Origin: Urechis unicinctus
Lineage: Eukaryota > Annelida > Polychaeta > Xenopneusta > Urechidae
Assembly (NCBI GenBank): GCA_034190875.2
Contig: CM067344.1
Coordinates: 28,097,208-28,161,207 of the forward strand
Length of the DNA: 64,000 nucleotides
Direction of reading: 5' to 3'
Below are positions 443-55,600 of the stretch, piece after piece (the first letter of the stretch is position 1; every line of letters starts with the position of its first letter). Made by a program: the position numbers and the translations under genes. The notes beneath the pieces are model-generated. The model ran no database searches. It saw only the letters and a program-made list of their open reading frames with translations, and was not told the DNA's origin.

Positions 443-3094
443 GATTTCTTGCTAGCTTGTCTTTTTGAGGATCTCAACTTGTACGTTTATGTCACTGCCC
501 TGATCAAGTTGTCGAGTCTTGTCAGCTGCTGTGCGGACGCTAAAGACGAATGCGAGGCGACGGTACACTATAATGGCGACTCTTCAACGAAACACCAAGT
601 TTATGTAGAGGCGGAATTCAGTTAGTCATCGCCGTTTAACATTCTAGATTATCATCAGTCTATATCAAACTCACTTCAAGTGCTATCATTTTCACTAATT
701 AGTTTATTGAATGACAAGAATAGGAACATTAGAATTTTGTTGCATATCTGTGAGTGCATTCTGTAGCGCAGCCTGTCAATCAACGCGGTATTTTAATCAG
801 AGATGAGGAGGGACAGCGGTTATTGCTCAGCCACTTGTCCAGCCAAAGCCTTTCCGTTACCAGAAGTGCTAAATGAATCATCTGCGTGGGGGCAGTCATA
901 AAATAACCACAGCTGATAGAACCGAACTCATAATTGTAATTACACACTGGGGTCACTTTTGTTTTCAATGAAAACCCGTTCAGCATTGAGATATAAATAG
1001 ATGAGATATCATAAGAGGGTTTACGCAACAGAAGCTGCCAAGCTTGAAATAACTCTTTGTGTGTCTGCCCATGGCTAAATATAGTTCCCCAAATCATATT
1101 GAACTGATAAAATTATACAACGGTATTTGTCATCGCGACGGCATGCTCTGTTAGCTTATGACCTGCAAGACATTTTGGTCAACTAATTTTGACCCAAATC
1201 TCAGACATGGTGCTAAATATGGCACCGGAAACGACCGCAACATGGAGTTCAGAAACAAGGGGTCATTTCAATATTGATTACAGGCTACAGTCATGCGCAG
1301 GGGTCATTTCAATATTGATTTTATGGTACAGTTATGCGCAAATATTCGTTAACGGTGGATGCAAAATACTGTCAACAAGCATCCAGGATACTCGGTGGCT
1401 TGCTCCATGCCAGGTAGGTTTAGGTAAATGCACGGCGACGTCATTATCAAGGCTTCCTTCTGACCGGGCGAGGTTGCTTAGATGGCACAGATAGTACCGG
1501 TAGTCCTCCGCGAACAAATGGATCACTTATGATCCCAATCTTACTGTTACGGAGCTTGTTCACTTAATCCAGCAAAACTAGTGTTTTTGATTCGATCTCT
1601 TGCTCCAGTCATTGCTAATAGTACAGCGATAAGATGGAAAATTGATTCGTTTGTAAGAAAGGCGAGTTTCGAGCGGAGATCTGGGGGATAAGGAACCCTC
1701 TGTCTGTCGCATTACCTCACGGTTATGGTCACAAGCAATTCCTTTTTATGATCAACGCGTAATTCAGTTTCCCTTCCTTTGATAAATAGGACTATCTCTT
1801 CATCTATAGACCGGGGTGGTAATCAATGTTTCGCACGAGAGCAATTCAACTGTTTCCTTCAAACACGACCACACTGGACAATTTCCGCTGGATAGCATAC
1901 TATATTATACAAATGAGACATATGGTTGTGGGGGACGTCAACAAGCCAGGTTTAGACGCTGCTAGAAATGCCACAACTGGCAAATGTAAACAGAATTCGA
2001 TATGTTTACATCAATAAATCTAAATCTTATACATTAGAACTGTAGCTCGGTGTCTCCTCGTCGCAATCATTGCTATCTATGCTGTCCTATATTGTCATGG
2101 CTGCTGGTGCGGCAAGACGTGGACGGGTGGACGAGCCGTGGCCGCTAACAAATGTTGATTTAAATGGCTGATGCTGAATGGAAATGCTCGGAAACATTCA
2201 CGTAGCTTGTTTGGAAGTCTGGAGTCGGTGAACGACCAACTCGTCGAAATAACCTCAGCAACGCTTAGTAATGTTTAATGCAAGACCACGCCACCTAGCG
2301 GATGAAACGATTGATCCATAGCCACGGGTCAAACCTCCGGAAACCTCCCGCTATATACCCATACTCTCTCATGAGGCAGTATAATGGTTCGCTAGAGGGA
2401 TCCACGATCCGGCTGTTGTCTGCTTGGTCGGGGATGCCACATCACACGTGCCCTAACCGACCTCACTCTGTACCGGAGCTCTGGGTCAGTCTAGAATGGG
2501 GCAAGGTTAGCTACATTTTTAAACATACAAGGAATGTTAAATCGCAGCTGGTGCAGGAGAATGGATCGTTGATTGCTAGGTAAACTATATATATTTTTCA
2601 CCATTAGCTCGTTGTCTCTTATTGTGGCTTTGATACCATCTCCACGGCGGCGCAGCTCACTGAACGCCAGCTCTAGTCTACGTGGGTTGAGGATGTTTTA
2701 CTGGAGGTAACAGCCTCACTTGAGGCGCCATACACGCTATGGAATGCAGACATGTATACGTTGGCGGCCTCGTAATCACAAACTTGCTTCTATATCTAGC
2801 GTTACTAATCGAAAACAGTATCATTCACTGGTCTGCTCACAACTTTTAGTAGTGAGGAACTTGTTTATTGGGAATGAATACATCCATACATTATTTTATT
2901 TACAATTTAGTAAGACTGTTCTTGGCTCAGATTATTCCTTGAAAATCCAAGCGAAGCAAAATGTTTGGGAACGAAGATGCAAAACGACAAGTAGGAGTCA
3001 CGTGACAGTACCACATACACTCAAAGACTCACAGCAATTAAATTGTGCAGCTTCTGCATGAAATTGTCCGGCAGCAATCTCAAAATTGTCTGAG
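443..3094. other. Intergenic, no gene supported
   Basis: Between the SLC22-type exon and the 3' end of the lectin receptor I see only short ORFs without domain character. A direct repeat of about 41 bp spacing (GGGGTCATTTCAATATTGATT at 1259 and 1300) is the only local structure. The SLC22 promoter and 5' UTR should lie just right of 442, but no recognisable core motif decides their position. Confidence 0.5.
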
Positions 3095-6000
3095 TTACGT
3101 GGAGCGTCTGTTGCTGTTACGGGGGTCATCGGGGTCCAGTTCGAAATACATTTTCCCGTCATGACCGGGGCCGGGTGCCGGTTCTCCGGGGACTCGGGGC
3201 AGCTCGTATTCGCGACTTTTTTGCCGACCATATGCTGGTCCGGTGTGCGCATGCGTTAAACCCGCTTCCTGGTATCCTTCGACCTGATCACCGTGGTAGA
3301 CGTTGCGCAGAAGATGGTCTTGCCTGCTAGCGGCGTCCGCGGTGTACGGCTGTTTGGAGTCGTACATAAAATGCGCGGGGCTTTTAGGAGTATGAACTCG
3401 CTTGACGGAGACGCTTTCGCCTGGGGAAGATTGCCGAAGTCGTAGTCGAGATTCGTCGGCAGTGCCTGGCCGTCCAAAACGCTGCTGACGTCTGTGAACA
3501 AATACGAATGTGATGAGAGTACAAAGGCTGTGTCAAAATGGCACATGCTGATTCGTATCCGCTATATTTAGCGACAATATAGACAGCCTACAAGAACAAA
3601 CACAAGTCATCACATTTACAGACGCGCTGTAAGCATTCTTAAGTAGTCGTACCTGCCAACTAGATAAAAAAAATCTATGATGACGTCATACCAACCTGCG
3701 TCTGGCGAGAAATAGGATTCCCAGTGATACACTGCCGATGATGACGCCAAGGAAGATACCTAGGATGATGGCGATGATGAGGCCTGATCGACACACAGGT
3801 ATAGAACGCGTTATGGGGCGACAAACAACAGAAGGTGTCTATTAGGAGGGGGTATATTGTGACTGCATGATAACTCGAAGAGTCTCTTGTTGTAGTGGTC
3901 AGGTGGTGATTGCGTAGACAAACCTGGCGAAGTAGACATACAAGAATCAGAAAAGGATACCCAGGTGTGAATAAGCACTTAGTATGAAGTGCAATATCAA
4001 TCCCGCTCTTTGTGACTTAATTATAGACAATCTCGATTGTGTCATAATGCACGGTGCTTGTTGTGCCATGAAACATCATGACGGAAACGCCCAGTCTGAC
4101 CCGACCTCACGAGCTAACGTCATCATAATCACCACTCTGACCCGACCTCACGAGCTAACGTCATCATAATCACCACTCTGACCCAACATCACGAGCTCAC
4201 GAGCTAACGTCATCATAATCACCACTCTAATCACGAGCTAACGTCATCATAATCACCACTCTGACCCGACCTCACGAGCTAACGTCATCATAATCACCAC
4301 TCTGACCCAACATCACGAGCTAACGTCATCATAATCACCAGTCTGACCCAACATCACGAGCTAACGTCATCATAATCACCAGTCTGACCCAACATCACGA
4401 GCTAACGTCATCATAATCACCAGCCTGTCACTGCATCATCGTAGTTTTTCTGCCATACATGGGTCAGATTGTCCACACGACTTGTGCCGATGGTGCATGA
4501 CAGGGGAGGAATTAAGACGGACCATTCGTCATATCACCCGAGGCCTCACTCATTCACGACGTCGAGCCAAAGTTCATATTCACCCAACCCGATCTGGTCC
4601 GCAATAGAAACCACAATCATGTAAAGCTGGCCGTACATATAACACCAAATGTATACCATGTGTACGCTGCCTAAAACTTACCCCAAATGGAACCCAAAGC
4701 AAAACGAATCACGTGCCAAATAGAACTCCCGTAAAACTGACCATCAAAAGAGATATAGAATTAAATTGTGTAAAAACTGACCATAAATAGAACACTTCAC
4801 AGAACGAATAAGTGTACAACTGACCATAAATAGAACACTTCACAGAAAGAAATAGTGAAAAACTGAACATAAGTTGAACAAAGCGCGAATATGTGTAAAA
4901 CCTGCCAAAAAAAGAACGCTTTACAGACCGAATTAGGGTAAAAATGGCCACACAAAGTACGCTTTACAGAACGAATCAGTGTAAACTGACACCAAATAGA
5001 ATGCCTCATGGAAAGAATAAGTGTGAAACTGCCGCCAAATAGCCCACTGACAGGAACACACTGATGACAACTGAACACCATTTCAAGAAGATGCACCTTG
5101 CGTTGACAGAACGCCAAACTATGCTATAACCCATGACAGAATACCACAAGGCGCAGATACATGTTACAATGGTCCAATTTTAGAACGCAACAATAATCTT
5201 ATGTGACACTACCGACTCTTAATGGGGGGTCACAAGATGAGAAGAAACAGCTGTCAACGAACTGCCCTATCTGTTATGCATACCTTGAGGGTAAGGAATA
5301 GAAGATCCAAACACCTTCTGAAACCCGCTTGACGCGCCTAGACACAAACACACACCTCCGATCAATAACCAGAAACACTGCTTAACGGCCACAAGTGAGA
5401 ATTCTAGGAGTGAGAATTGTAGGCTATTTTGGGTGAGTACTCACTGTCCCCGCCGGACGAGCAATTGACCGAGTTGTTACCGAACCATGTGCTGCCCATA
5501 CAGGTGAGGTGCCAAACCTCTCGTGTGAAGTTACATTGCACCTCAAGGCCGCCTTCGATGCGCTTCACGGTGGTGTTGACGGGTGGTCGGATGTCTGGAC
5601 AGCCCAGCACTGTTGGCAGAAGATGGCTCAATATTCATCATTCATATTGAGAGAGGCGAGGGGGTGGGGGGAATTCATTCGTATGAGATGTACGTAAGGT
5701 GGGAAGTATTCATTCGCGTGAGGTTAACGTGATGTGGAGAGTATTCATTCGTGCGAGGTGTTCGTGAGGTTACAAACATTTACTCGTGTGAAGTGTTCGT
5801 GGGGTGGTAATCATTTGTCCGTGTGAGGTGTTCGGTGGGTGGTAATCATTTATTCGTATGAGGTGTTCGGTGGGTGGCAATCATTTATTCGTATGAGGTG
5901 TTCGGTGGGTGGTAATCATTTATTCGTATGAGATGCTCGGTGGGTGGTAATCATTTATCCGTGTGAGGTGTTCGTGGGGTGGTAATCATTTTCCGTGTCG

Positions 6001-7063
6001 TGCTGTGGGTGGTAATCATTTTCGTATGAGGGGGGTGGTGGCAATCATTTATTCGTATGAGGTGTTCGGTGGGTGGTAATCATTTATTCGTGTGAGGTGT
6101 GAGGTGGGTGGTAATCATTTATTCGTATGAGGTGTTCGGTGGGTGGCAATCATTAATTCGTGTGAGGTGTTCGTGGGGAGGTAATCATTTATTCGTGTGA
6201 GGTGTTCGTGGGGTGTTAATCATTTATTCGTGTGAGGTGTTCGTGGGGTGGTAATCATTTATTCGTGTGAGGTGTTCGTGGGGTGGTAATCATTTTTTCG
6301 TGTGAGGTGTTCGTGGGGTGGTAAACATTTATTCGTATGAGGTGTTCGACGGGAGATGCATATTTCTCCATGTGAGGTTAACGTAAGGTAGAAGGCATAC
6401 ATACGTGAGGTGTACTTTAAGTAGGAATAATTCACTCTGGACCACAATCTTCAGAGACAACTATTACCCCAAATGGTTCAATTCGTTAAAGACAATGAAA
6501 CACATAGGGGGGAGATTGATCAGAACGAACACTTCAGGTTTAAGCAGTAAAGAGCGAAGGAATTTGCATCGCCTCGTTAGAGCCAGCCGTTAATCGCACT
6601 TCTCAAGAATGAAAAAAACGTAGGGCACATTAGCCCGTGTAATCCTACCTGTGTAATTAAGAACAAACACGGGTGCTTGTGCCATGTTTCCATTCAGAGA
6701 GAAGTAAACTTCGACCATACTAGAGGCAGAGCGATGGATAGCGCGCGTTGTCTGGTGGCCAGCACATAGCGCTTCCACGAAGGTCGTCGTGCCGTCTTGA
6801 ATGACCACCTCCCAGTTGCACTCACGTCGACCATGGAGAGTTTCGTGAGACTGAGTGCGGTTGTCACTGGCAGGTTTAAACAGCGTCAAGTAGAAGTCGA
6901 AAGTCTGGCCTTTGCGAGCGCGTAACCGCCAGGGGCATTGACTGTCTCCGTGACCGTTCTGTTGCAGGGTCTGACTGGCCAGCAGCCCGGAGGACGAGGT
7001 CAAGAGCGGGGTGTGCTGAGGCATCCGACACGTCAGCTCTTGTGTTGATACTGCATGGGGCGC

Positions 7064-7104
<41 letters not shown>

Positions 7105-7520
7105 ATATTATCAACAACAACAACAACGTCATCATCATCATTAACATAATCGTCATCAACACAATCACAATCACAATCACCAACTAATGTCCTTATATAA
7201 TGGTGCGTTTCAATAATAATCTAAATAAAAATAGAGCAAACCTGGTACGCAATTGTAGCTTGCTTCCAGGTACGACGCGAAGTCCCTCTTACATGGCCGG
7301 ACTTTGTTGACCAGGCTGGACACGAGCATCTCACAATGGCTACGACCCGAGCAGTGTCCGGCAAGTATTGACGACACGTTCAGAGCACAACCCAAGTAGC
7401 CTTCACCGCTGATGCAACTTCCGGTGCGCATGCGCCCATACTGTGCACTTTCTATGAGTATGACGGATCCAAATGGACAAGCCGCCTCGAATTTATTGTC
7501 CACGCAGTAAGATATAATTT
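3095..7520 (-). CDS. Membrane lectin receptor: SUEL - CUB - sushi - TM - cytoplasmic tail (5' end missing)
   Basis: Five exons join in consistent phase: 7520-7242, 7050-6649, 5609-5445, 3783-3696, 3491-3095 (stop). Exon one is a SUEL/rhamnose-binding-lectin domain (SYCVDNKFEAACPFGSVI at its start, YLEASYNCVP at its end). Exon two is CUB-like, with cysteines and a terminal VFVLNYTG. Exon three has a four-cysteine sushi/CCP pattern (GCPD, VQC, LTC, STWFG, VNC). Exon four is a single membrane helix (GVIIGSVSLGILFLARRR at its end) with a basic stop-transfer. Exon five is a tail of about 131 residues with seven tyrosines, including REYELP and MYFEL (a YxxL-type motif). SUEL domains bind galactose or rhamnose; CUB and sushi are extracellular adhesion modules. 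The signal-peptide exon must lie right of 7520 and was not found. A role as a surface glycan receptor is inference. Introns are filled with minisatellites. Confidence 0.72.
4095..4423. repeat. Minisatellite, 41-bp unit, about 8 copies
   Basis: The unit CTGACCCGACCTCACGAGCT plus AACGTCATCATAATCACCAGT repeats head to tail, with one shortened copy and one with an internal CACGAGCT duplication. It lies in the intron between the sushi and transmembrane exons of the lectin receptor. Confidence 0.9.
4670..5050. repeat. Degenerate minisatellite, about 43-bp unit
   Basis: Copies of AACTGACCATAAATAGAACA followed by CTTCACAGAACGAATAAGTGT recur with heavy divergence. The array sits in the same lectin-receptor intron as the 41-bp array but shares no unit with it. 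Confidence 0.75.
5690..6345. repeat. Minisatellite, 35-bp unit, about 18 copies
   Basis: The unit GGTGTTCGTGGGGTGGTAAT plus CATTTATTCGTGTGA repeats through most of the intron between the CUB and sushi exons. Variants alternate between TTCGGTGGG and TTCGTGGGG and between GTGTGA and GTATGA. Confidence 0.9.
7063..7180. repeat. CAT/CAA/CAC microsatellite in the SUEL-CUB intron
   Basis: A run of CAT triplets grades into CAA and TCA-rich sequence and makes up most of the 191-bp intron between the SUEL and CUB exons. The long methionine-rich ORF on the minus strand here is produced by the repeat and is not coding upstream of 7050. Confidence 0.85.
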
Positions 7521-10500
7521 CTGGAAGCAAGAAAGTCATATTGCTGTATGTCTGCGCTGACCATCACGTGCATCCGGTCAGGCAGGCGGAAAATCAATGA
7601 AGTCGGCAAGTACGACAATTATGCAAATATATACTATCAAAAACTGGCGCCAAGAACTGGCCTTTTTAAGCATGTATTTTTGCCAATACATCATATATGT
7701 ATGCTGCCTAGCGAACGGACGCGTGACGCATAATAAGCTTAATAAGCTGATGTGGCAGTTATGTTTTCATGTGCGTACTCGCTTTCTTTGAGTCACACCC
7801 ACACTGCAGACACTGTATTACGTTACACTGTTACAGTGACGAAACCAAGATTGTGATCTGCATCGGAAATAAGCCGTGCAGCAGACTAAAACTGAATATA
7901 AAGATGGATGCTATATTGCCGGGTTCTTCGTCAAATATATCCTATCACCAAACACGATACAGAGACGCTATATACTGGCATGTCGATATGGATCAACTCG
8001 GGACAGGCCGTCGGTTGCCTGAGGACAAACACTTGAATGGTGCGAAAGATTCGTTATTTTGCTACCTTTCTAGATAAACATGCATTGGTCGACGCAGTCT
8101 TCTGCACGCTCGTGTGTTCTTTGACATGTCGGTTCTCGTCCGCTACAAATGTGGTATATAATCATACGCTGAGAATGATAACGCAGTCATTTCTGACAAT
8201 TACTTAGTTTAATTGACAAGAAGAGTTCAAAAGCGTCCGTTCCAATGAGAAGCCGATAACCTACTTTTACTTCGAGCATGCGCGAGATCCAATCGCGAGA
8301 TTGCCGTTTTTGGGATCTTCAACAGTTATGCACATGACGTGTGGTCGGCACCGTGGCACACAGACTGCCGTGCTACAGCTATACCTTCCATGTGCAAAAG
8401 TACACGGTATTGACGATATAACGCTCGTGGTTAACTCAGCGGTGTCTTCTACTTTCCTCATTTGTGACCTACGCAACCCGAAGTACCCTACTAATCGCGA
8501 ACAGCGGAAAATTTACATACAAGTCCGGACAATGCCGCGGAAATAAAAACTTTGCTTTTTGTCTGTCAAATGACTAGCACGCTTCACGTTGGTTAATAGC
8601 AGATGTTTATTAGCATGGATCACTCGTGCTTAATTAGAACATGACTGACACCTTAATGAGGGAAAATAACACCTGCCCATTATCAAATGAAAACACCAGA
8701 GCGTATTACAAGTCCTTACAGTCCCTATGACGTGGTTTCTCCACGGTGTTCAGTGAAGGCAAACTATTCTCTAATAGTCTGTTTTTTATATGCCCCATGC
8801 CCTTTGAAATCCAACCGAACTAAATGTGTTAGCACGGTTGGAAAGACATCAGGTCTTCCGGGTTATATTTCACCGCGCCTAGCTGGGAGACAAGCGACAG
8901 GTTACGGTCACCACAGGTATATACTGTGAACGCATACACATGTCTGCGATTCACTGCTCATTCACTAATGGATTTCATGAAGCATATGTGTAACGGCGGC
9001 ATCAATATGACACAAAACAGCCACACCAGCTCGCAGGGTCAGGATCGCGATCCTATAGCCGCCCCACAATGTCTCTCCTTCCCTGTTGTCCTCAATCCCA
9101 ACCACCCCCCCCCCCCCCCCCCCCACACCCACCACTCCCACTACACCCTCACTGCACCACACCGTGTAACAATATAGCATTAGATTATTCACGCTGGCAT
9201 TTAACTCAGACCTACTCACGGATCGTGTATGAAAACATATCACTAGCTGACATTTCATGTTGTCACCCCGCCCCCCGTATTTAATATCGACAATAATTAC
9301 ATTATTCAAAACTCAATGTAAAGAATACGCATATTTCTGTATTGTGATAGATAGTTCCGGCGACGCTGTTATTGTCTCCCCTGGTGGTTGCATCGCTGCC
9401 TGAGACGGTATAATAGAACAGGAGCAGAATGATAAAGCCGCACATAGTACATTAAAGCATAAAATCAAGGTTCTATGAAGTGAATGGGATGGCAGAAGCA
9501 GGGGCGTTGATGAGATGTGACAGCTTCAGCCGACGTCTACCATTGTCATACGCCATACCTTAAATGACAGGTGACAGCGTAATTAGCCAGCGCATATCTT
9601 CACCCCCATGAATCATATACAGGATATATAGGGCCGTCATCCCGCATATCGAATCCGTTGTGGCACACGTCATGAGTATGAATAATAAACTGTCAGCCGA
9701 AGACACCCCAGCCGAAGAGGACTATTATTTTGCCTCCCATTCGAGATGGGCGGCAATAGTTGGTTGGCGTGAGATGCGACGCGGGACTTCCTCACACGCG
9801 TCAGCTTATGATTCTTAGTAAGCGCTCCTCACTTCAATGACGGCGAAGTAGTACGAGAGATCAATACGCGCCTCACCACGCAGGCATTGGCTACCGGGAC
9901 TCCGCCGCCAGGGACGCTCCTCATATCAGGGAGAGATATGGGAAAGAGACCGACACCACATAACCAATGAATAAAACTACTCTCTCATTGTCTCAAAGCA
10001 CACGACACAATGACACCTTCTGCGCGAGACTGGCGGGAAATAATAACATGGGACGAGTCGAATTTGATGTGGGATCGGCCCCACCCGATGTCAAGGTCAC
10101 ATAATGAGGCCTGGAAGTTAAATAGAGGCGCAATCAACCGGCGCACCAAAGTGATTTCGATCTGTTATACTAGTCAACATATACATCATTAAAAGTTACA
10201 TTGTCAAAAAGCTAAGGAATGTTTACACTGCTAACCAGAAGCGAGTTTATCTTAAAATCTAGTCATTTTATTATTATCATTATTCTGTCTGTCAGGTGAA
10301 CAGGTGCGTCATCATCTTTGATGTTGAACATGATTGGCTGCCGACAATTAAAGGTTGCAGTGCTGTTACCGTGGATGAGAAAAACAATCCATGGTTCTAG
10401 TTTACCAAACAAATAAATCAAATAACTTCGGGGTTTAAATTCGTTTGCAACAACGAGATGATTTCGTGACGGTGATGGATGAGAGTGATTGTGATTGTGA

Positions 10501-10690
10501 AGTTTGGGTGGCACCCTTTAAGTGCAATTACCCAGTAGACACAAACCTGTTTTCTCGACGACAATTTACGATTGTGGAGTAGTAACTTCAGGTTAGTCAG
10601 CAGACAAATTACTGCCTTGGTGTAGTAACTGTAATTTGCGGTTGCGATGAAATATCTTTACAAAGTTTACGATGTTGAAGTAACTTCAAA
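7521..10690. other. No supported gene; expected location of the receptor's 5' exon(s)
   Basis: The missing signal-peptide exon of the lectin receptor should fall here or further right and should end with one base of a split codon. I found no convincing candidate. A poly-C tract sits at about 9106-9124. The remaining ORFs are short and featureless. Confidence 0.45.
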
Positions 10691-10694
10691 CAAT

Positions 10695-11335
10695 TTAGGC
10701 AGGTGATAGAGCAACTCCAGACCATGACAGGCAGGTGCTACAGCAACTCCAGACCATGAAATGCAGGTGCTACAGCAACGCCAGACCATGACAGGCAGGT
10801 GCTACAGCAACGCCAGACCATGAAATGCAGGTGCTACAGCAACGCCAGACCATGACAGGCAGGTGATACAGCAACGCCAGACCATGAAATGCAGGTGCTA
10901 CAGCAACGCCAGACCATGACAGGGAGGTGCTACAGCAACGCCAGACCATGAAATGCAGGTGTTACCGCAACGCCAGACCATGAAATGCAGGTGATAGAGC
11001 AACGCCAGACCATGACAGGCAGGTGCTACAGCAACGCCAGACCATGAAATGCAGGTGCTACAGCAACGCCAGACCATGACAGGCAGGTGCTACAGCAACG
11101 CCAGACCATGAAATGCAGGTGTTACCGCAACGCCAGACCATGAAATGCAGGTGATAGAGCAACGCCAGACCATGACAGGCAGGTGCTACAGCAACGCCAG
11201 ACCATGACAGGCAGGTGCTACAGCAACGCCAGACCATGACAGGCAGGTGCTACAGCAACGCCAGACCATGACAGGCAGGTGCTACAGCAACGCCAGACCA
11301 TGACAGGCAGGTACTACAGCAACGCCAGACCATGG
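10695..11335. repeat. Minisatellite, 32-bp unit with a 64-bp dimeric higher-order repeat
   Basis: The unit ATGACAGGCAGGTGCTACAG plus CAACGCCAGACC repeats about 20 times. In the left two thirds, units carrying ATGACAGGC mostly alternate with units carrying ATGAAATGC, giving a 64-bp dimer. At the right end five or more consecutive units are all of the ATGACAGGC type. Confidence 0.92.
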
Positions 11336-11384
11336 ACGACAGGAATGCATGAACTTTATACAATGAACGGTTGTTTTGCGGTAA

Positions 11385-11760
11385 GCTCATGCAATTTGCG
11401 GTCGGATGTAGTGACATCAAACAATTCAGGGTTGTGATGCAGTGATTTCAAAGAGTTCAGGGTTGTGATGCGGTGTCTTCAAACAAATCAAGGCTGTGAT
11501 GTGTCATCGTCAGACAATTCAGGGCTGTGATGAAATGATTTCAATCAATTCAAGGCTGTGATGCAGTGGCATCAAACATTTGAGGGTTGTGATGAAGTGA
11601 TTTCGAACGATTCAGGGTTATGATATGGTAACGTAATAAAAGTCAAGGTTGTGATGAAGTGATTTCAAACAATGATGGGTTGTGATGAAGTGACTTCAAA
11701 CAATGATGGGTTGTGATGTAGTAACTTCAAACGATTCAGGGATTCGGTGTTGTAGCAACT
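11385..11760. repeat. Decayed minisatellite, about 31-33-bp unit
   Basis: Diverged copies of TTCAGGGTTGTGATGCAGTG followed by ATTTCAAACAA run through this stretch, directly after the 32-bp array but unrelated to it. Similar weaker motifs also occur at about 10560-10690. Confidence 0.7.
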
Positions 11761-12625
11761 GCATTCAATTTACCATTGTGGTGCAGTAATTGATTATGAT
11801 ACAAACGTCAATGTGGTACAGTTGATGTATAATACCGTATATCGCATGTGATCGGCCCTCTCTGTGGAAGTCCTCATCGCCATAGATATTTCGATACAAC
11901 GCGCTGCTTTCTGAGCACGTGGCGTCGCTATTGCCCAGCAAACAAAGGGTGATTGTTTCCACGTTTCTATTAATACTCGGTTGATGTTGTGGAATTTGCG
12001 GTTGATGAGGTGCAAAATGCATGTCACAATTAACAGAAGCTGGGAGGATTTGTCGCGCCCCTTGACGCCTTGTCCCTAGGCTCGCGTCGCTTTGCCTCAT
12101 TGATCGCCCTTTCCCTCCGCCACTCCCTTCCCTAACACCTCATCTCGGCTGCTTTTTGTCACTTGGTTTGTAAGCTAACCCAGGCATTGTTATCCCCATC
12201 TCATATCTGCCTGCATGCACGCCTGGAGCCAGCCAATGCGAGTCATTCGTCATCATCACGGCCATCACACACTGCGCCCTGAGGCGGAGGCGCGAGACAT
12301 GTCGACGATAGTGCCACGCGAAGCTGACGTGAGAACAGTAAAAGCAGCGGTGTTAGCACTCACGAGTCCTAGAGGAATGCTATCACATCTGCGGCTATGC
12401 GCCATATCGGGCAGCGTCCGTGTGTAAAGATAACGACAGCTTATCGGCTTCTCACTCCACCGACATCAATAGAGAAAACCCGTCTGTATAATGTCTTCAT
12501 GTGATGGGCACACAGGCAGATATGTTTGTTTTCATATTCCAGACCACCGATGAAATTCTTTACTCGTCTTATCAATATATCTGCCCTATTAATGCTTGAT
12601 TTGGCATCTCATCCATTTCTCTCTT
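11761..12625. other. No gene supported
   Basis: Unique-looking sequence with short ORFs on both strands that show no domain, splice-site pairing or codon pattern I recognise. Confidence 0.4.
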
Positions 12626-12629
12626 ACCC

Positions 12630-13140
12630 TCCCTTGGATCCTCACCACCTTGTTTGTCTGGATCCTCACCACCTTGTTGGTCTGGAACCTCACCACCTTG
12701 TTGGTCTGAGCCCCACCACCTTGATGGTCTGTATCCTCAACACTTTGTTGGTCTGGATCCTCACCACCTTGTTGGTCTGGATCCTCCCACTTTGTTGGTC
12801 TGAATCCTCAACACCTTGTTGGTCTTTATCCTCACCACCTTGTTGATCCTTATCCTCACCACCTTGTTGGTATGGATCCTCACCACCTTGTTGGTCTGGA
12901 TCCTCACCACCTTATTGGTCTTTATCCTCACCACCTTATTGGTCTGGATCCTCACCACCTTGTTGGTCTCGATCCTCACCACCTTGTTGGTCTGTATCCT
13001 CACCACCTTGTTGGTCTGTATCCTCAACACCTTGTTGGTCTGGATCCTCGCCAGCTTGTTGGTCTGGATCCTCACCACCTTGTTGGTCTGGATCCTCACC
13101 ACCTTGTTGGTTTGGATCCTCACTACCTTGTTGGTCCCTC
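12630..13140. repeat. Minisatellite, 24-bp unit, about 21 copies
   Basis: The unit GGATCCTCACCACCTTGTTG plus GTCT is repeated with few changes. Because 24 is a multiple of three, several frames stay open on both strands, giving eight-residue periodic ORFs (WILTTLLV on the plus strand, RIQTNKVV and GEDPDQQG on the minus). These are by-products of the repeat, not genes. Confidence 0.93.
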
Positions 13141-13299
13141 ATCCTCTCCTTCCTCTCTTCTTCTTACTTGATGTTAGTGACTGCCAGTTTCCTCAATTCT
13201 TCCTTTCTTTCGGTCTTCCCCCAAATCTCCCTTATTCTCCTCACTCACCCATACACTCTCACCCATCCTCATCATCTATCTCGTCCATCCTGATCATCG

Positions 13300-14640
13300 C
13301 TCTCTCCCATCCTCAGTATCCCTCTTTATCATCCTCAGTATCCCTCTTTACCATCCTCAGTATTCCTCTCACCAATACTCAGTATCCCTCTCGCCAATAC
13401 TCAGTATCCCTCCCACCCATACTCAGTATCCCTCTCACCTATACTCAGTATCCCTCTCGCCCACACTCAGTATCCCTCTCACCCATCCACAGTATCCCTC
13501 TCGCCCATACTCAGTATCCCTCCCACCCATACTCAGTATCCCTCTCACCCATCCACAGTATCCCTCTCGCCCATACTTAGTAACCCTCTCACCCATCCAC
13601 AGTATCCCTCTCGCCCATACTCAGTAACCCTCTCACCCATCCACAGTATCCCTCTCGCCCATACTTAGTAACCCTCTCACCCATCCACAGTATCCCTCTC
13701 GCCCATACTCAGTAACCCTCTCACCCATCCACAGTATCCCCCTCGCCCAGACTCAGTATCCCTCTCACCCATCCACAGTATCCCTCTCGCCCATACTCAG
13801 TATCCCTCTCACCCATCCACATTATCCCCCTCGCCCATACTCAGTATCCCTCTCATCCATCCACAGTATCCCTCTCGCCCATACTCAGTATCCCTCTCGC
13901 CCATCCTCAGTATCCCTCTTTACCATCCTCAGTATTCCTCTCGCCAATACTCAGTATCCCTCTCACCCATACTCAGTAGCCCTCTCACCATCCACAGTAT
14001 CCCTCACATCGATATTCAGTATCCCTCTCGCCAATACTCAGTATCCCTTTCACCTATTCTCAGTATCCCTCTCACCCATACTCAGTATCCCTCTCACCCA
14101 TACTCAGTATCCCTCTCACCCATACTCAGTATCCCTCTCACCCATACTCAGTATCCCTCTCAATACTCAGTATCCCTCCTCCCATACTCATATCCCTCTC
14201 CCATACTCAGTATCCCTCTCACCCATACTCAGTATCCCTCTCACCCATACTCAGTATCCCTCTCGCCCATACTCAGTATCCCTCTCACCCATACTCAGTA
14301 TCCCTCTCACCCATACTCAGTATCCCTCTCACCCATACTCAGTATCCCTCTCGCCCATACTCAGTATCCCTCTCTCACCCATACTCAGTATCCCTCTCAC
14401 CCATACTCAGTATCCCTCTTTACCATCCTCAGTATTCCTCTCGCCATCCACAGTATCCCTCACATCGATATTCAGTATCCCTCTCGCCAATACTCAGTAT
14501 CCCTTTCACCTATTCTCAGTATCCCTCTCGCCCATACTCAGTATCCCTCTCGCCCATACTCAGTATCCCTCTCGTCCATCATCAGTATCCCTCTCGCCCA
14601 TACTCAGTATCCCTCTCACCCATCCTTTGCATCCCTCTCC
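13300..14640. repeat. Large minisatellite, 22-bp unit, about 60 copies
   Basis: The unit CTCAGTATCCCTCTCACCCA plus TA dominates 1.3 kb, with subarrays using ATCCACAGTATCCC or AGTAACCC variants. A block of about 130 bp containing TTTACCATCCTCAGTATTCC and CACATCGATATTCAGTATCC appears twice, near 13918 and near 14418, showing a larger internal duplication. Confidence 0.93.
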
Positions 14641-15178
14641 CTCATCATCTCCACTCTTCCCCCATCATCTCCACCCCTCCCCCACCCCCCGCCCCATCAC
14701 TCCTATATTGCATTTCGCCTCAACTTTCAATCACCTCCATTGGACGCTTCGTCACGTTGTAGCATCATTCTAGCGCCCTATAAGCGTGGCTTCAGTAGCT
14801 CTTTAACTGATGACTGGTACCTTATGCGAGGTGCCTCTCGTGGCGCTAATGACCTCTGCAGCCACTCGCTTGCCTCGCTAGTAACTCGGCCACCCTGACA
14901 AATGGGGCATGCTTGCCGTCTTCCATGGTGATAAAGCCCCCATCGTCTTCCATCTTACGCTCGCCCTCAATGAGTTCATTATGAGGCCCTCTGGTCTCTC
15001 TTATACAGAAAGAAAAACCTCAATATCCTAACCACAAAATAAGAGACGTACCGACGGCGATAATGTCATCTTAAGGAAAATTATAATGGTCTATTTTTGT
15101 TGCAATCACAACCCTTGGTCCACAGCCACATATCCTTCATTATAACTATAGCCCGCCCACCTACACCCCCCTTTCTCG

Positions 15179-31090: not shown

Positions 31091-31233
31091 CCAGTCGTCC
31101 CGCACTTTTACACTATTTCATCTACCCAATAAATCAAGTGGCTTTAGTCAAACACGTTGAGCACCCATTATGTAAAAATATATGAACATGATCTTGATAT
31201 TTCAAGCTCGAGAGATTTCTTAGTCGAACAAAT

Positions 31234-32804
31234 GTGAATGCGAATGTGATACAGACCTTCGGAATACAACCGGCATCGTTGCAAATACGTTCAAATATGG
31301 GATCCGACAGCGCATTTGAAAATCTGCGGACATTCGCCACGACGACGACAATCAGAGGTCTGCCCAAGTTGATGAAATCTAAAACTGTCTTTCAGTCTGC
31401 GTTATGGTTTCTTACCCTCCTGGGCGGCTCCGCTATGGTCGCGTACCAGCTGCAAGGTCTCCTGCGTGAGTATCTGGCCTACGATACAACCATCAGCTAC
31501 TCCATCACGACCAAAACAGCACGTTTCCCGGACGTTACCATGTGTAACCTCAACCCGACTTGGTCGGATGACCACGTCCAGAAGACTCTCAATTCGTCAA
31601 TAGCCTCCATCAACTTCATCGTGTCGCTCGAGTATCGGAAATTGGTTGAGGCGGGTGACGAGCGCCGGGCGGGTCTCCTCCTTAGCCTCCTCAATACGGC
31701 CGGTATCATGCAGAACATCAACGTGACGGAGATCATGCAGGATCCCGCCAGTAATCCCGTCATCTCCTGCGCCACCAGAGACCGCCACGGACGCATCGAC
31801 ACGGGTGAATGCACGAGTCATATTCGCCCGGTATTCACTCCCCAGTTCGGCGTTTGCTTCACGTACAGCCATCCTCTTGGTTCACCCATCATCCCAACGA
31901 AATTCTCGGCTATATTGTTTTTAAACGACTTCCAGACCCAAAGTATGAGTAACTTTTTCATGAATCCGGCCGCTACGTTCGCATTTGGAGCCCGTGTGCT
32001 TGTCCACGCTCCAGATACGTTTCCGGACATGAATGACGGGATCAATATCGCCCCTGGAACGGAGGCGACGTTTCCTACAGAAGCGATCCAACATAAGGAT
32101 CTGGGCGAGCCTTACAGTAGCTGCCAGAACTACAACCCCATCAAGGCTGGCAATGTAAGCTACACATACACCCAAAAACTCTGCCGCGAATCTTGCATCC
32201 AGAGATATATCTTCCAAAAATGTGGATGCTTTAAGATGGAGCTTATGACCTTGAATCATGAGTTAGGGAACGGCTACTTTTGTGGCAAAAACAGTGTTGA
32301 TGACATCGAGCATTTATTAGGCAACCTTGAATGTTCTCGGGTTGCTATGGTCGGCATGGTGGGTGGCAAAGACGCCGCTAACTGCAGCTGTTTCGAACCT
32401 TGTCAATACATACGATATGCAACGGAAGTGCGCCAGGCTCCTGGCCACACGAGGCCTTTCAACTTAGTTTTTACCACAACATCATCCGACACAGTTATTT
32501 CAAGGATAAATTCGCCATTCTGGAGAACTACACAAGCCTCGCCGACAACCAGGAAGCGTTATTTGAAGAGCTGCGTAGCTCCGATTTGATCAGGCGCAAC
32601 TTCCTTCAGGTGAATGTAGAAATTGAAGCTAACCACACCGTGATTCTGAAGAGCCAACCTACGGTGACTGGGTTCAGTCTAACAGGGAACGTGGGTGGCA
32701 TCCTCAACCTCTGGCTTGGCGTCAACTTTGCTACCTTTATAGATCTGATTGACACCTGTTATCTGATGATCATGGCAAAGGTTAACCGCGTAACCCATGC
32801 TTAA
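31234..32804 (+). pseudogene. DEG/ENaC-family channel, intronless, with one frameshift
   Basis: A DEG/ENaC/ASIC sodium channel subunit spans about 520 residues in a single exon. Visible in order: an N-terminal IRGLPKL where the family usually has a His-Gly gating motif (here R41-G42), TM1 at about residues 53-75, ARFPDVTMCN after TM1, the large cysteine-rich ectodomain (CRESCIQRYIFQKCGCFKM, CSCFEPCQYIRYA), then GSWPHEAF, and TM2 with VGGILNLWLGVNFATFIDLI. Between about 32425 and 32440 the frame shifts by -1: the first frame runs to a stop at 32589, while the conserved SWP motif and TM2 are in the next frame, ending at 32804. The cause may be a real 1-bp deletion or a sequencing error. In the pore, the usual G-x-S is G-V-N. 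No poly-A tail follows, so retrogene origin is unproven. Confidence 0.8.
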
Positions 32805-39784: not shown

Positions 39785-40794
39785 AATGTTCATGTTGATG
39801 ATGATGATGATAATGTTCATGTTGGGATGATGATGATAATGATGATGATGATAAACGATGTTGGTAATGATGTAAGTTTTTACGATGGTGAATATAATGA
39901 CAAATATGATGATGGCCAATGTGATGATAAATATACATGGGATACGCAATTGGTGAAATTGTATAACTAATTAATATTAATATCAATAGCCATGAGACGA
40001 CGATGAAGTTGGCATTGATTGCAGGTGTGAGAAGGGGCGTGTGGTCGTACGCCAGGGCCATCAAGGTAACCACTTCTACCTCATATACTCGGGCTCTGTA
40101 CTGGTACGGGCGTGTGATGATGATCCAAGCGTGGATGACGTCACAGAGCTGCCGGAGGTCACCAAGTACGGACCAGGCAGTACATTCGGGGTGAGAACCA
40201 AAACCTGTACCGACTTTTGTAATCGCCTTTATATACAGACACATACAGTAACACTCATCTTGGCAGGCCAGTAATTTAGCAGGCACCCGCATATATCGGA
40301 CAGATTATCACAGGCCCTGTTGTTCATGGACATACCTCTTTCAAGATCATGCTTGTACTCGCTGAGCGTCCGTTATCGTAGAAATACGCATTGGTATTTG
40401 TTGTGAAGTGATGAACATACTTCAATTCATGTGGCGCGTTAAATATCATCTAGTGGCTGTCGCTGTACCCAGGAAGTGGCCCTGCTAGAGGAGGAGGGAA
40501 GACGAACTGCCACTGTAGTCTGTAACGAGACCACAGAGTTGTTCCAAATCGACCGCTCGGACTTCTTGTCCGTCTGCGGCGATCTCTTTCGCCAGGAGCT
40601 CCAGACGAAGATCTCGCTCGCCAGGTAAGTTGTGGGAGGACATCATCCAGAGAGCTCAGAGAGCTTGCAGCAAGATCTTTGGTTATAATGTCAATTGCAG
40701 TACATTTCGGATGTTTGGACCGAAAAGAGTAGAAAGCACATTCCATTATATTACTGGAATTCTGTAAACAAATGAGGATTTGATCTTAATGATC

Positions 40795-47323: not shown

Positions 47324-48905
47324 TTAGTAACAGAAATTGTGAACAAACATTGAATCAAGTACAGCATCTTTGAAATAGTCCCTGAAAAACACTTCTAACT
47401 TTGAAATCATAGTAGTGATAAAGTCATCGTCACGGGTAACTGGAACAATCTCCATACTCTGAGACGTAAAAACCACAAGATGACAAAGTTGACTCTTCGT
47501 GCAAAACAACTGGCCCTGAATTTGGTAATAGTAGTCATGTTGGCTGTTAAGGGTCAGCTGATTGTTCTCACTGACCAGGTACGGCAGGAGTGACTGGTTT
47601 GTCCCTGGTACTTTAGGGGCACTTGACCTCAACAATCATGTCACCAGACACAACACCATCTGGTGAGCATGCGAGGTAGGGGTGAGTTTGGAACATCACA
47701 ATCCGGTACGGCTCGACCTCGGTCCCAGTCAACCCTGCATATTTCCCCAGAGCCACAGGCTTATTACGGATACCATAGTCAATGGCTTTGGCCCGAATCT
47801 GATTGACGCGGGTCAGCGACTTCGCCATACGGACCAAGTCTGTTTTGATAGTTGCTTTGCATTTCCTGCCAAACTGGGTGGACTGCAGTCTCTTACACCT
47901 TTCTAAGTGCCAAGCTTTATTACTGGCTTGTCCCAAAGTTGTATCCCTCACCTCTTGGCACTGAGCTTCTGTGATGTCGGTGATGATTTCATGCTGAAGG
48001 AATTCATCTTGAGGAGCAAGTTTGAAGAAGTCATGGTCATTGGCAATTGCATATTGGTTTGCTGGGGGGAGAGCTGCAGGAAAGGCATGCGGCAGGTGGA
48101 TGAGGAGGCGAAGTTGATGCACTTGTTCCTGGAGGATGAGGGGTAGTCTGGCATAGAGCAGTGGCTGTATGGCCTGGGGTCAAAGTCGTCATTGCAAGAA
48201 GTTGCTTACCTCAGTTTCAGGTTCTGAGCCTTGACAGGCGATCTCTTCAACTTTTTCTTCGGATGGAAGGTCTGGAGCTTCTCTGTGCAGCTTTCCTCAA
48301 GTTGAAGTTTACCAGACACTTTAAAATCTTCCAGTGCACACAGCACAGCACACACATGCTTACAGTGTGCCTCTGGGCCCATGCCTGCACCACAATCACA
48401 CTGGCACTCATTGATGACGCATTACATCAACCTCGTACTCCACTGACTTCTTTATCTGTGCACGGCACCGACCTCTGATGAAGGTAGCTCGCAGGAAACG
48501 GAGGAATCCTTCAGCGTATAATCCCTTTGCGTCTTTGGTAAGCTCTTTGTTGAGGGAGCGGAGATAGGCAATCACCTGGGCCATATCAAAGCAGGGGAGC
48601 AAGGTGTCCGCGTTGATATCCCTATACCTGATAATACACAAACACAATAGACTTAGAATACACAAGCATAATCGACTTGACTCACTTTTTACTCGAACAA
48701 ATGCAGAGGTAATGTGATAAAATTCTGACAGCTAATCATTCATAATTGATAATTAATCACTAACAAAAATGCATTGCCATAAACAAGTAAGGCTGCAAAC
48801 AATTAATCAGCATATTACTTTGCTCCTTCAGGGGTTTTGATGTGGTATCCCTGTCCCACATCTTCTACTCCATTGAAGTTCTTTTTTCGGTCATAAGCTT
48901 CAAGC
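47324..48905 (-). pseudogene. SWIM zinc finger plus YqaJ-type nuclease gene, with introns and two frameshifts
   Basis: Three exons: 48905-48819, 48627-48210, 48147-47324, joined in phase by a 191-bp and a 62-bp intron with good GTAATA and GTAAGC donors. Exon two carries a SWIM finger (ECQCDCGAGMGPEAHCKHVC, CxC...CxH). Exon three carries a YqaJ/lambda-exonuclease-like fold: WHLERCKRLQSTQFGR, the catalytic-type SPDG and EVKC motifs, then YYYQIQGQLFCTKSQLC. Such SWIM-YqaJ proteins are common, multicopy and probably transposon-related in marine invertebrates. A 1-base insertion near 48423 separates KSVEYEVDV from the SWIM finger, and a 1-base loss in the C-run near 47620 follows EVKCP. Further 5' exons right of 48905 are not identified. 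Either frameshift could be a sequence error. Confidence 0.75.
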
Positions 48906-49822: not shown

Positions 49823-50964
49823 TTGAGTGAATATTTCGTTTTGGTATTTTTTCTTTGGTAATTATTAAGGTATTCGCCTGTCGGGTGTCAAATTGGAAAT
49901 GCAAAGCAGACTCAAAAACAATCAAACCCAACTCTGTCTCCCAGCTTCTACCTTTAAGATCACCGATCAAATAATTACTCTACTGCTGCTTACAAACGTA
50001 CTGGTTCTGCATTATACAACACACAATGGCTTGAGCATTTTAGGACTTATTTTAGGTAAACGCGTACACTTTTGCCATGTGTTAAATTCCCAGAATTTAC
50101 ATGCTCTTGAATTCGTCGAGGTACGCTTGAGACCTTGGGCGTTTGAGGATCCATGAATACCACTTGCCGAATATTGCGAACGAGGACTGCGTTGGTTACA
50201 GGGTCCCTGACCTCAACATGGATGATCATGGACGACTTGCCCACCTCAGACGAGACGGTTCGGCAATGATAGGGGTGGCCAGGGCCGCTGAGCTGTAGAA
50301 ATGGTGACTGACTTCCCATAGCTGACTCCCAACTACACCGCGCGCAGAATTATATCCAAAATCGACATTCATGTACTTGTAGCCAATCAATCTATTCACA
50401 TCCAAGATTTTACACACGGCTGCAAAATCAGGAGCACCTGTGGAACAATAAAGATTACAAGGTATATTAGGGATTGTTTGTAAATTTAATAAGAAGTTTC
50501 GCTTCTACTGTGTTCAAAAGAGGGATACATGTGTTAGCTGCATCCTGTTTGCCAAAGAAATATTCTATTCTTACCTGCTTTGTTAAACACTGCATAGGGT
50601 AATCCTTGCAGGACAAATTCTGACGCCAAATCTTTCTTCCATATTTTGACGTCCAAGTCAAAACTCCTGTGAAAAATAAAACATGGGTCTATATCAACCT
50701 GGTCATTATAAAATATTAGAAATAAATAATTTAACAAGTTTTGAAGGCTAGAAAAAGAGAAAGTATATACTTATGGATAACGCACAAAAATAAATAACCT
50801 TATTAAGTTTATATTGTGTTCTTGTCGCGCACCCATGCCATCGGAAGGGAGACTAATCAGTGTACAGAGAACGTCAAAGTGCTCCAATCGCAAGGATTTG
50901 TGATAAGCAACAAAAGATGACCTTTGGTGTCTATGGATTGATGGACTGGAAGGTTACTTCCATA

Positions 50965-52836: not shown

Positions 52837-53764
52837 TCAATCAAACAATTCAAATCTCTCAAGGACTTTGCATAAATACCTTCTTTGATTCATCTTTACA
52901 ACATTTTCAACTTGCTCAAAGTTAATACCTTTCATTTGGAATTTGGTTTTCAATATATGTTTGACATCACTCAATAGAACATCATTACTTGTTCCAATAA
53001 CCAGATCATCAACCCAGATTAGCAGTACACTCAGTCCACTTTCATCTTGTTTTGTATACAAACAATGATCAACAGAACTCTGTACAAAATTGTTTTCTAA
53101 TAAATAGCTGTGTAACAGATTGTTCCAATTTCTACCTGACTGCTTTAATCCATACAGAGATTTGTTCAACTTGTACACCAGTTTCCCTTCACAATCAGAG
53201 GGAACTTCAAAATCCTTAGCTTGCTCCACATATATTTCGCAATCAATTGGAGCATTGCGATAAGCAGTTTTCACATCCATCTGATGTAAAATCAAATCAT
53301 GATGTGCAGCTATCTGCATCAGAACACGCACTGAGGTAAGGTTGGCAGTTGGAGCAAAAGTTTCCTTACAATCTACACCTTTCACTTGACTGTAACCCTT
53401 AGCTACATATCTAGCTTTGTCAGTTTGAAAACGATTTGAACTTTCTTTGATAGTATATACCCAACGACCCCCCACTGACTTTCGACCTTCTGGTAGGGTG
53501 GTCAGAGTGACTGTATTATTCTCTTTCAGAGAATTCATTTCATCTTTCATTGCCGTTTTCCAGTGGTCAGACTTCATTATAGCTTTGAGGAAACGCAGAT
53601 ACATTGTCACTTACAATAATCCCTCATGTATGTTGGAGGATTTCTTTGCAGGCTAGGATATCTAGCATTGCTACCCAAAAACTCTGAGTCTACCTCTGGT
53701 TGGTGTTTAGGTTCAGAATCTTCTGCAGGCTGACTTGAACCAAAGATCTTGTATAAGATACCCG
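52837..53764 (-). pseudogene. Copia reverse transcriptase remnant
   Basis: After a linker with ARYPSLQRNPPTYMRDYC and a stop, a 257-residue frame (53610-52837) carries the Copia RT: NSLKENNTVTLTTLPEGRKS, VGGRWVYTIKES, QMDVKTAYRNAPIDCEIYVE, NKSLYGLKQSGRNWN and the catalytic LLIWVDDLVIG. The usual Y-V-D-D is W-V-D-D. Just after, the D-L-G-x-x-x-x-F-L-G-I segment expected after FQMK is missing, so a small in-frame deletion is likely. Confidence 0.88.
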
Positions 53765-54451
53765 ACTCGGAGACGTTTGCGTTATGAAGCTCGTGACTAG
53801 CGCGCCACCTGGTTTCGTGGAAGCTAAAATGTAAACAAAAGCGCGTGGCTCAATGGTAAAAGATCGATCGGCGATGGTATGTACTCATAAATACCGCTGT
53901 ATATCTAAAATTTAAACGACTTTTTGATAGAGCCAATACATGCAAACTATTGACAACTTTTTATAAATTTTTGTGACGATTTTTTAACTACAATATTTTT
54001 TTATGAACGTTTGAACGAAGTCGCATATATCAGTATCTACCCCAGGCCTAGCTCCGGTCGAACGGTAATATACATACTTACTCAGACGTCATGTAGGTCT
54101 GAATTTACCCCTTTTTAAGACACAGTCGGACGTTTAGTCTACCCTTATTTGATGTTAAAAGATTAATCTGAATTAAATTAGTTTTGTCATTAGTGTGGAC
54201 ATATAAGAAGTTGATTTAAATACAAGCTCATGATTTCCCGATTGAATGATATTTGATTTGTCACCCGAACCTCCACCCAATCAACATGCTCCATTGTCGG
54301 TTGATGGGGTGCCCTGTGCAGACGTATGATTTTATTATGTAGTACTGTAACATGTATCCTTGCTTATTTGAATAACAATATAATAATGAATTATTTGAGG
54401 ACATAGCATATACTTAAACATCGATGCAGCATGAATTTAATCATCAACGCT
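53765..54451. other. Unidentified insert within the Copia element
   Basis: Sequence between the Copia linker and the TC array has no match to Copia, no ORF of note and no motif I recognise. Confidence 0.4.
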
Positions 54452-54716
<265 letters not shown>

Positions 54717-54732
54717 GGTCATTACAACTAAA

Positions 54733-55050
54733 ACTCCCAGTCTTAATAGCTTACTCAGAACAACCACAAATGAAATGAGATCATCAGCATACATTAGAAA
54801 ATTAACAACAAGCACACTAAAACTACACTGAACACAACAATTATTTAAAACCAGAGCTCAATTCATCCACATAAAACCGATAGGTTTGACAATATGCCTC
54901 CCTGTCTTATGCCATTAAACACACCAAATCATCCAGACATAGTTCTGTCACATCTTACACACACATCTGATTGGAGTGCCATACAACCAACCATTCTAAC
55001 AGTATATCCAGGGAAACCTTTGTTCAACAAGCTCCTCCCACCACTACAAT
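54733..55050 (-). mobile_element. LINE reverse transcriptase fragment nested in Copia
   Basis: Minus-strand reading, with two or more stops, gives FNGIRQGGILSN followed about 50 residues later by FLMYADDLISF. GxRQGxxLS and the YADD polymerase motif at this spacing are diagnostic of non-LTR retrotransposon RT and differ from the Copia RT at 52837-53610. It lies between the transposase fragment and the TC/AT array. Confidence 0.65.
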
Positions 55051-55214
55051 CTAAGGTGCAGTAGTCCTATATACTGGTGTGGATTTATGATAGAAAAGTC
55101 CTTGTACATCTGGCATAGAGGGCTTTCAAGGAACTAAGTAAACAAATATTAATATTTGATGTTTCGGCAATCTACACATACAACAACACCTAAAACAAAT
55201 AAGAGCACAAATTT

Positions 55215-55600
55215 TCATGTGTGGGAAAATGTAAATGTCTTACGATTTTTTCTCTCCTTATGGTCCCTTAACTTACAGTTCACCATAATACATATTACAG
55301 AAACATGACACCTGCATGATTCATATTGGAGTTTCTCTAATGAGACCTCTTTAGCTAGAATGCTTACAGCCCTGGCTTTCACTTGCTTACTATATAATAC
55401 TGTGTCAATGAATTTGCGGCAATGTTCCTTAAGCCTGCATAATGCATCTACTATTGATTTGCTTGGGACAGCGAGCCCTTCCTTTGCACTTAGGTAATTC
55501 TTCTGATCATTGACAACAGAACTTTTGTTCCTGCATATTGCACACAAATTAATTTCTGGGCAATATAGCCAGAGACATATGCTAGAACATTCACTCTAGC
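55215..55600 (-). mobile_element. P-element/THAP9-like transposase C-terminal fragment
   Basis: Directly after the Copia integrase core, the minus strand reads VLAYVSGYIAQKLI, then in a shifted frame CAICRNKS, KEGLAVPSKSIVDALCRLKE and CKLRDHKERKNRKTF. The pattern A-Y-x-x-G-Y-x-x-x-K-L, a C-x-x-C pair, G-L-x-x-P-S-K and a closing K-L-R region resembles the C-terminal part of P-element and THAP9-type transposases. One frameshift lies near 55545. Confidence 0.5.

Follow-up and report, generated by a model that had tools for sequence, protein, structure and literature searches.

A minus-strand SUEL-CUB gene of Urechis unicinctus with a tyrosine-bearing tail, and its many paralogs: a candidate surface-receptor family apparently lacking the known sugar site

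We analysed a stretch of 64,000 nucleotides from the genome of Urechis unicinctus (GenBank assembly GCA_034190875.2, contig CM067344.1, here C3, positions 28,097,208 to 28,161,207), referred to below as the window, in which positions are counted from the first letter. On its minus strand, running from 7520 down to 3095, lies a gene whose five exons are bordered by GT..AG and join in phases 1,1,1,2; its structure is real and is known here from genomic sequence. In order, the exons encode a SUEL domain of the rhamnose-binding-lectin fold (E1, 7520-7242, entered and left in phase 1), a CUB domain (E2, 7050-6649, likewise phase 1 in and out, with a second in-frame acceptor possible 12 bases further in that would move its start to 7038), a four-cysteine module of ~55 residues of the GCPD..C..W.L.C..W.G..NCS type (E3, 5609-5445), a membrane helix (E4, 3783-3696, phase 1 in, phase 2 out) and a cytoplasmic tail that ends at a TAA stop (E5, 3491-3095, 131 whole codons). 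The joined exons encode 442 residues; a single hydrophobic helix (mean hydropathy over 19 residues up to 2.79) is preceded by seven N-glycosylation sequons, and the tail, with seven tyrosines, carries YELP and YFELDPDDP. The first-pass annotation had proposed these five exons in one consistent phase, a single-pass helix and a tail of about 131 residues, seven of them tyrosines. The exon borders and paralogs with the same exon order bear out the splicing, and the joined reading bears out the helix and the tail; because the paralogs keep the same order, a chance joining of the exons is very unlikely.

The domain identities were examined exon by exon. E1 matched Pfam SUEL (PF02140) at 1.8e-10 with 41.5 bits, above the cut-off of 31.4, and among solved structures in the PDB it found a rhamnose-binding lectin (5h4s, 2.2e-9) and also latrophilins (8suf, 2jx9); its match in its own genome lies at C3:28104456-28104689. 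The exact E2 exon scored 18.1 bits against Pfam CUB (PF00431; E 0.0034), under the cut-off of 21.4, and none of six shuffles with the cysteines held fixed matched any family. A profile of 14 CUB exons, from the window gene and its paralogs, matched cubilin at 3.4e-14, PCPE-1 at 7e-8 and MASP-2 at 1.1e-5, and taken singly 9 of the 14 exons gave a Pfam CUB match at E up to 1 (best 6.1e-7). At the level of sequence comparison this family profile confirms the predicted CUB identity of E2, so that SUEL and CUB do occur in one protein, as first supposed. An AlphaFold2 model of the CUB exon alone had a mean predicted local distance difference test score (pLDDT) of 41 and was not used. The sushi label given earlier to E3 found no such backing, since neither E3 alone nor a 16-member family set matched sushi (PF00084) in Pfam or any sushi structure in the PDB. 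E3 has four cysteines and a tryptophan between the third and the fourth, a pattern that recurs in 0.6% of shuffles and that was set as the sushi signature after E3 had been seen. Three of the cysteines and that tryptophan are invariant in the alignment of four-cysteine exons, the fourth cysteine is kept in at least 90%, and two tryptophans stand at 90% or more. As the cysteine spacing resembles that of a short CCP, E3 may be a degenerate CCP; the likeness to sushi is in spacing only, and we call it the four-cysteine module here.

The helix exon was identified by hydropathy and by the same exon type in paralogs, and the tail exon by comparing reading frames. A rival tail frame, reached through acceptors at 3485 or 3482, was disfavoured by base periodicity and paralog homology. 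A codon score trained on two neighbour genes preferred this rival (+3.8 vs −4.8 for the 3491 frame), and a synonymous-codon score favours the 3491 frame. The latter is favoured here because its base periodicity runs beyond the stop of the rival frame and because it gives the best match to paralog tails (E 6.5e-4; the two remaining frames gave 0.014 and 0.68).

The architecture had been thought uncommon, but in its own genome (1.19 Gb searched) it is common, with dozens of copies. The SUEL family search gave at least 150 matches, all above the cut-off (150 of 260 candidates scored), of which 115 lie on contig C8, where clusters span 9.41-9.65 and 47.70-47.87 Mb; one of the 150 is interrupted by a stop codon and a few are incomplete. 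Searching with the four-cysteine exon returned 91 hits (E up to 1), one of them the window's own. For 67 of these a scored SUEL match lies upstream on the same strand, no more than 8 kb away, compared with 21 in the downstream control and 7 in the opposite-strand control; outside the dense clusters the figure is 23 of 41, with 0 in both controls. We read 19 paralogous genes (L009, L013-L023, L026a, L026b, L027, L029-L032). Twenty loci were taken from the SUEL list, of which 14 held family genes (15 genes) and six did not (L024, L025, L028 and the dense SUEL arrays L010-L012); four further loci are biased towards the family because they were chosen from the four-cysteine list. All 19 paralogs have the SUEL and four-cysteine exons, and in 16 the order SUEL, CUB, four-cysteine, membrane is the same. 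The CUB exon was detected by tblastn at E below 0.7 in 15 of 19, weakly in L009 (E 0.99), while in L026a, L026b and L032 a putative CUB exon at the same position aligns with the CUB set. A membrane exon stands in the proper place in 16 of 19 and was not seen in L023, L027 and L029; among 12 membrane exons scored, the best acceptor was phase 1 in all 12 (one tie) and the best donor phase 2 in nine. Two of the 17 genes scanned, the near-identical L026b and L032, have a first exon that resembles a signal peptide and whose donor is in phase 1. The window gene is located outside the clusters, and in a tree with 18 paralogs it falls together with L009, another C3 gene (0.45, a weak support), and with L029 (0.73).

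Three other places in the genome stood out in these searches. The dense array at C8:9410000-9655000 (L010-L012) holds 76 scored SUEL matches but just 17 four-cysteine matches, and many of its SUEL matches follow one another at ~1 kb, a spacing suggestive of genes with several SUEL domains each or of a distinct array of SUEL alone. At C8:47705976-47706215 a SUEL match sits in a 1985-residue open frame, much longer than the others listed, and the small contig C838 (1-17000) has four SUEL and four four-cysteine matches and is perhaps an alternative haplotype of a C8 cluster.

The outer domain was also proposed to sense glycans. In the available part of a study of mouse latrophilin-1 (PMC2430599), the residues that hold rhamnose are Glu42, which adjoins the first cysteine, and Lys120, and every substitution tried at either residue, conservative ones too, abolished or strongly cut binding. 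Aligned to 2jx9, the window SUEL domain has Val in place of the Glu and Ser in place of the Lys. Among 37 distinct complete related SUEL exons (39 rows minus two incomplete; 19 from paralogous genes and 18 from arrays or other loci), the Glu is kept in five (4 of 19 and 1 of 18, respectively), the Lys in none and thus both in none. As a control, five ordinary SUEL domains that are complete, from contigs C1, C11 and C13 of the same genome, were read by eye, and three of them had both residues; the pattern used picked out no line in L006 or L024, and L005 and L028 were without the N-terminal part. Similar losses of the sugar residues are described for EVA-1 and PKD1-like 2 in the same excerpt (PMC2430599). 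The known sugar site is thus lost across the related SUEL exons examined, and because both key residues are missing, glycan sensing through that site is unlikely, contrary to the earlier proposal.

YELP and YFEL had been singled out in what was seen as a possible sorting or signalling tail; judged within the window tail alone they do not rise above chance, yet they fall on motifs common to paralog tails, and it is only because of this recurrence that they carry meaning. We counted motifs in 15 tails, those of the window gene and 14 paralogs, from the 20 genes (L023, L027, L029, L026b and L032 were left out), and compared them with 2000 shuffles. YE[SL][PT] occurs in 7 of the 15 tails vs 0.14 expected, and YF.LD[PK] in 5 vs 0.001 expected; four tails have Y[TA]H[IV]W, which no shuffle produced. 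In the other open frames of the same loci (756 frames; 73,404 residues), YE[SL][PT] was met once, in a CUB exon, YF.LD[PK] once, in the L026b tail, whose frame carries YFVLDKDY, and Y[TA]H[IV]W not at all. The pairing seen in the window tail, YELP with YFELDPDDP, is mirrored in the L014 tail by YESP with YFELDPDSP, and the window tail matches the L017 tail at E 8e-4. The window tail is also modestly high in PxxP (p 0.015), and we found no NPxY and no dileucine in it.

How the outer and inner parts diverge was compared among L026a, L026b and L032, three genes clustered at 47.8 Mb on C8 (L026 and L032 lie at 47.79-47.85 Mb). Their tails are 0.93-0.99 identical, with a ratio of nonsynonymous to synonymous change (dN/dS) of 0.03-0.11. 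The CUB exons are 0.49-0.89 identical with dN/dS of 0.12-0.26, the four-cysteine exons have dN/dS of 0.06-0.11, and the SUEL exons are 0.63-0.79 identical, their synonymous change being too large for dN/dS. At the DNA level the identity of L026b and L032 drops from 93% around the first exon to 77% in the SUEL-CUB part, returns to 92% in the four-cysteine exon with its intron, and is 82% for the helix and tail. Such a divergent SUEL-CUB patch between similar flanks points, within these three genes, to block exchange or fast change of the outer domains. Tail exons of 91-92% identity were also seen between cluster genes whose introns yielded no alignment. In L032 (2433-2636, sense orientation) the tail match ends at residue 80 of ~106 and the frame goes on with other residues, possibly a disrupted copy.

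The remaining features of the window are as follows. On the 3' side of the tail exon, two AATAAA polyadenylation-like signals lie on the minus strand at 2895..2900 and 2864..2869. More than half of intron 2 (5610..6648, minus) is a 35-base minisatellite (5673-6348, 19.6 copies), and intron 3 (3784..5444, minus) has tandem repeats of 41 bases (4091-4422) and 43 bases (4768-5031). The region 4091-14684 is rich in minisatellites (periods 20 to 43 bases), three of which lie within the receptor introns, and it includes a 63-copy array at 13256-14639. Further along, a DEG/ENaC-type sodium channel gene occupies 31198-32804 on the plus strand (PF00858, 1.8e-50), for which the best match among solved structures is FaNaC1 (8on7), a channel gated by FMRFamide, and a cyclic-nucleotide-binding-domain match at 39996-40274 (plus) is slightly under the Pfam cut-off (25.5 of 27.5 bits). 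The minus strand holds a YqaJ-type nuclease domain at 47613-48179 (4.4e-8), perhaps derived from a mobile element, Copia-type retrotransposon pieces (gag, integrase, reverse transcriptase) at 52837-57057, and a thioesterase-like frame at 61368-62186, of which a partial second copy, recognised by eye and giving no Pfam match at 0.01, lies 11 kb away at 50047-50504.

Taken together, we consider it probable that the window gene encodes a type I cell-surface receptor belonging to a large paralog family, with a part that binds a protein or other non-rhamnose ligand outside and a tyrosine-motif tail inside. The outer part would most likely bind such a ligand because the known SUEL sugar pocket is dismantled across the related exons examined, and the SUEL-CUB head would bind ligands that differ from member to member. 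Inside, the tail would most likely connect to the cell by tyrosine sites on which kinases, SH2 proteins or sorting adaptors could act: the YE[SL]P site, once phosphorylated, could bind SH2 domains, and the YF.LD site could serve phosphorylation or endocytic sorting. Diverse outer domains joined to a far more uniform tail could then turn many ligands into one common response. Surface location, protein ligands and phosphorylation are what we infer, as is any role in immunity, adhesion, self-recognition or gamete recognition, the immune, self-recognition and gamete readings being indistinguishable here.

Several observations weigh against this interpretation. The window tail taken alone has its motifs at chance level (YFEL p 0.65, YELP p 0.51) and contains no immunoreceptor tyrosine-based activation or inhibition motif (0 ITAM, 0 ITIM). 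A looser form, Y.[SL]P, is present in 6 of the 15 tails vs 1.55 expected, and shuffles reached up to 7. YE[SL][PT] is missing in 8 of the 15 tails and YF.LD[PK] in 10, the paralog tails were chosen by eye among open frames and the motifs after the tails had been read, and 5 of the 20 genes contributed no tail. The upstream scan of the window gene, covering 23 kb, gave no convincing signal-peptide exon (the opposite strand had 10 candidates vs 3), and no convincing one was found in 15 of the 17 paralogs scanned, most with less than 1 kb of upstream DNA. In no exon for which it was computed did dN/dS exceed 1 (three genes; SUEL not computable), and dN/dS therefore gives no demonstration of diversifying selection; the low synonymous divergence of the tail exons fits gene conversion too. 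Finally, the SUEL fold might bind sugars through another site.

The main rivals are guidance like that of EVA-1 and uptake like that of cubilin. In the former, the gene would encode a developmental or neural guidance co-receptor, EVA-1- or latrophilin-like, whose degenerate SUEL domain makes protein contacts. EVA-1, a Slit co-receptor, has SUEL domains without the sugar residues according to the accessible portion of PMC2430599, and the solved structures closest to E1 include SUEL domains of latrophilins. The dozens of partly tandem, strongly diverged copies are set against this, since guidance receptors are generally known as few and conserved, and within the window neither a second SUEL exon, sought by tblastn, nor a seven-transmembrane region was found; the single SUEL exon within the window differs from the pair by which the EVA-1 family is recognised, though further exons may lie beyond the window. 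We regard such a co-receptor as unlikely. An endocytic scavenger or nutrient receptor, in which CUB takes cargo and YF.L is the sorting signal, is a still more doubtful proposition: cubilin is the best profile match of the CUB set and YFEL conforms to Yxx-hydrophobic, but YFEL by itself is at chance in the window tail, and sorting leaves unexplained both the conserved neighbouring LD[PK] and the separate YE[SL][PT] site. A lectin receptor whose SUEL domain binds rhamnose- or galactose-like sugars while its tail signals could draw on a sound SUEL fold, the YGR motif retained in the window domain and the Glu retained in 5 of 37 relatives; this too is quite improbable, as the window has Val and Ser exactly where substitutions in latrophilin-1 strongly reduced or abolished binding (PMC2430599, as excerpted), and the Lys is missing in 37 of 37. 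That the gene is a decaying or unexpressed copy, as its place outside the clusters, its minisatellite-filled introns and the missing signal-peptide exon could suggest, is very unlikely with all five exons open, their borders intact and the family motif retained in the tail.

Beyond the single gene, the proposed surface receptor may, tentatively, be one member of an undescribed invertebrate recognition-receptor repertoire, in which dozens of SUEL-CUB-four-cysteine receptors would have given up sugar binding, swapped or diversified SUEL and CUB between tandem copies and kept a uniform tyrosine-motif tail, so that many ligands could feed one signalling route in immune, self-recognition or gamete recognition. 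Several animals distinguish self, partner and microbe by large receptor families with variable ectodomains and a common tail; a family built on a lectin fold without its sugar site would, if the reading is right, add a new case. Such a family would also put to the test the suggestion, made in the part of PMC2430599 seen here, that receptor SUEL domains act by protein contacts. No description of SUEL and CUB in one receptor family was found among the open-access literature matches listed, mostly titles, and the novelty is provisional because InterPro architectures and most subscription papers lay outside that search; the family may already sit in databases under automatic names. Within the excerpts at hand, a review of SUEL architectures has no CUB in its main text (PMC3269628), a survey of rotifers places SUEL within large multidomain membrane proteins of bdelloids (PMC8878817), and an Aplysia immunome contains three SUEL genes (PMC9334734). 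Automatic 'lectin' labels on genes like the present one are probably wrong in function.

Among known systems, cubilin, PCPE-1, MASP-2, NETO2 and neuropilin have the CUB fold in common with the window gene, as detected by the family profile, but they have other architectures and are not known to contain a SUEL domain. The rhamnose-binding-lectin domain of latrophilin (ADGRL) is detectably similar in its SUEL fold (8suf, 2jx9); latrophilins have seven transmembrane helices, and mouse Lat-1 has the sugar residues in the excerpt of PMC2430599, whereas here there is one helix and no sugar residues. The Hydractinia rhamnospondins are likewise a duplicated SUEL gene family proposed to be immune recognition molecules, but in the available portion of PMC3269628 they are secreted proteins in which thrombospondin repeats accompany a SUEL domain at the C-terminus, and neither CUB nor a membrane helix is mentioned. 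EVA-1/EVA1C (C21orf63) resembles the window gene as a single-pass protein with SUEL, and its C-terminal SUEL domain is without the sugar-binding Glu and Lys; it has two SUEL domains, with no CUB or four-cysteine module mentioned in the excerpted text of PMC2430599, whereas the Urechis genes combine one SUEL domain with CUB and a four-cysteine module, in dozens of copies.

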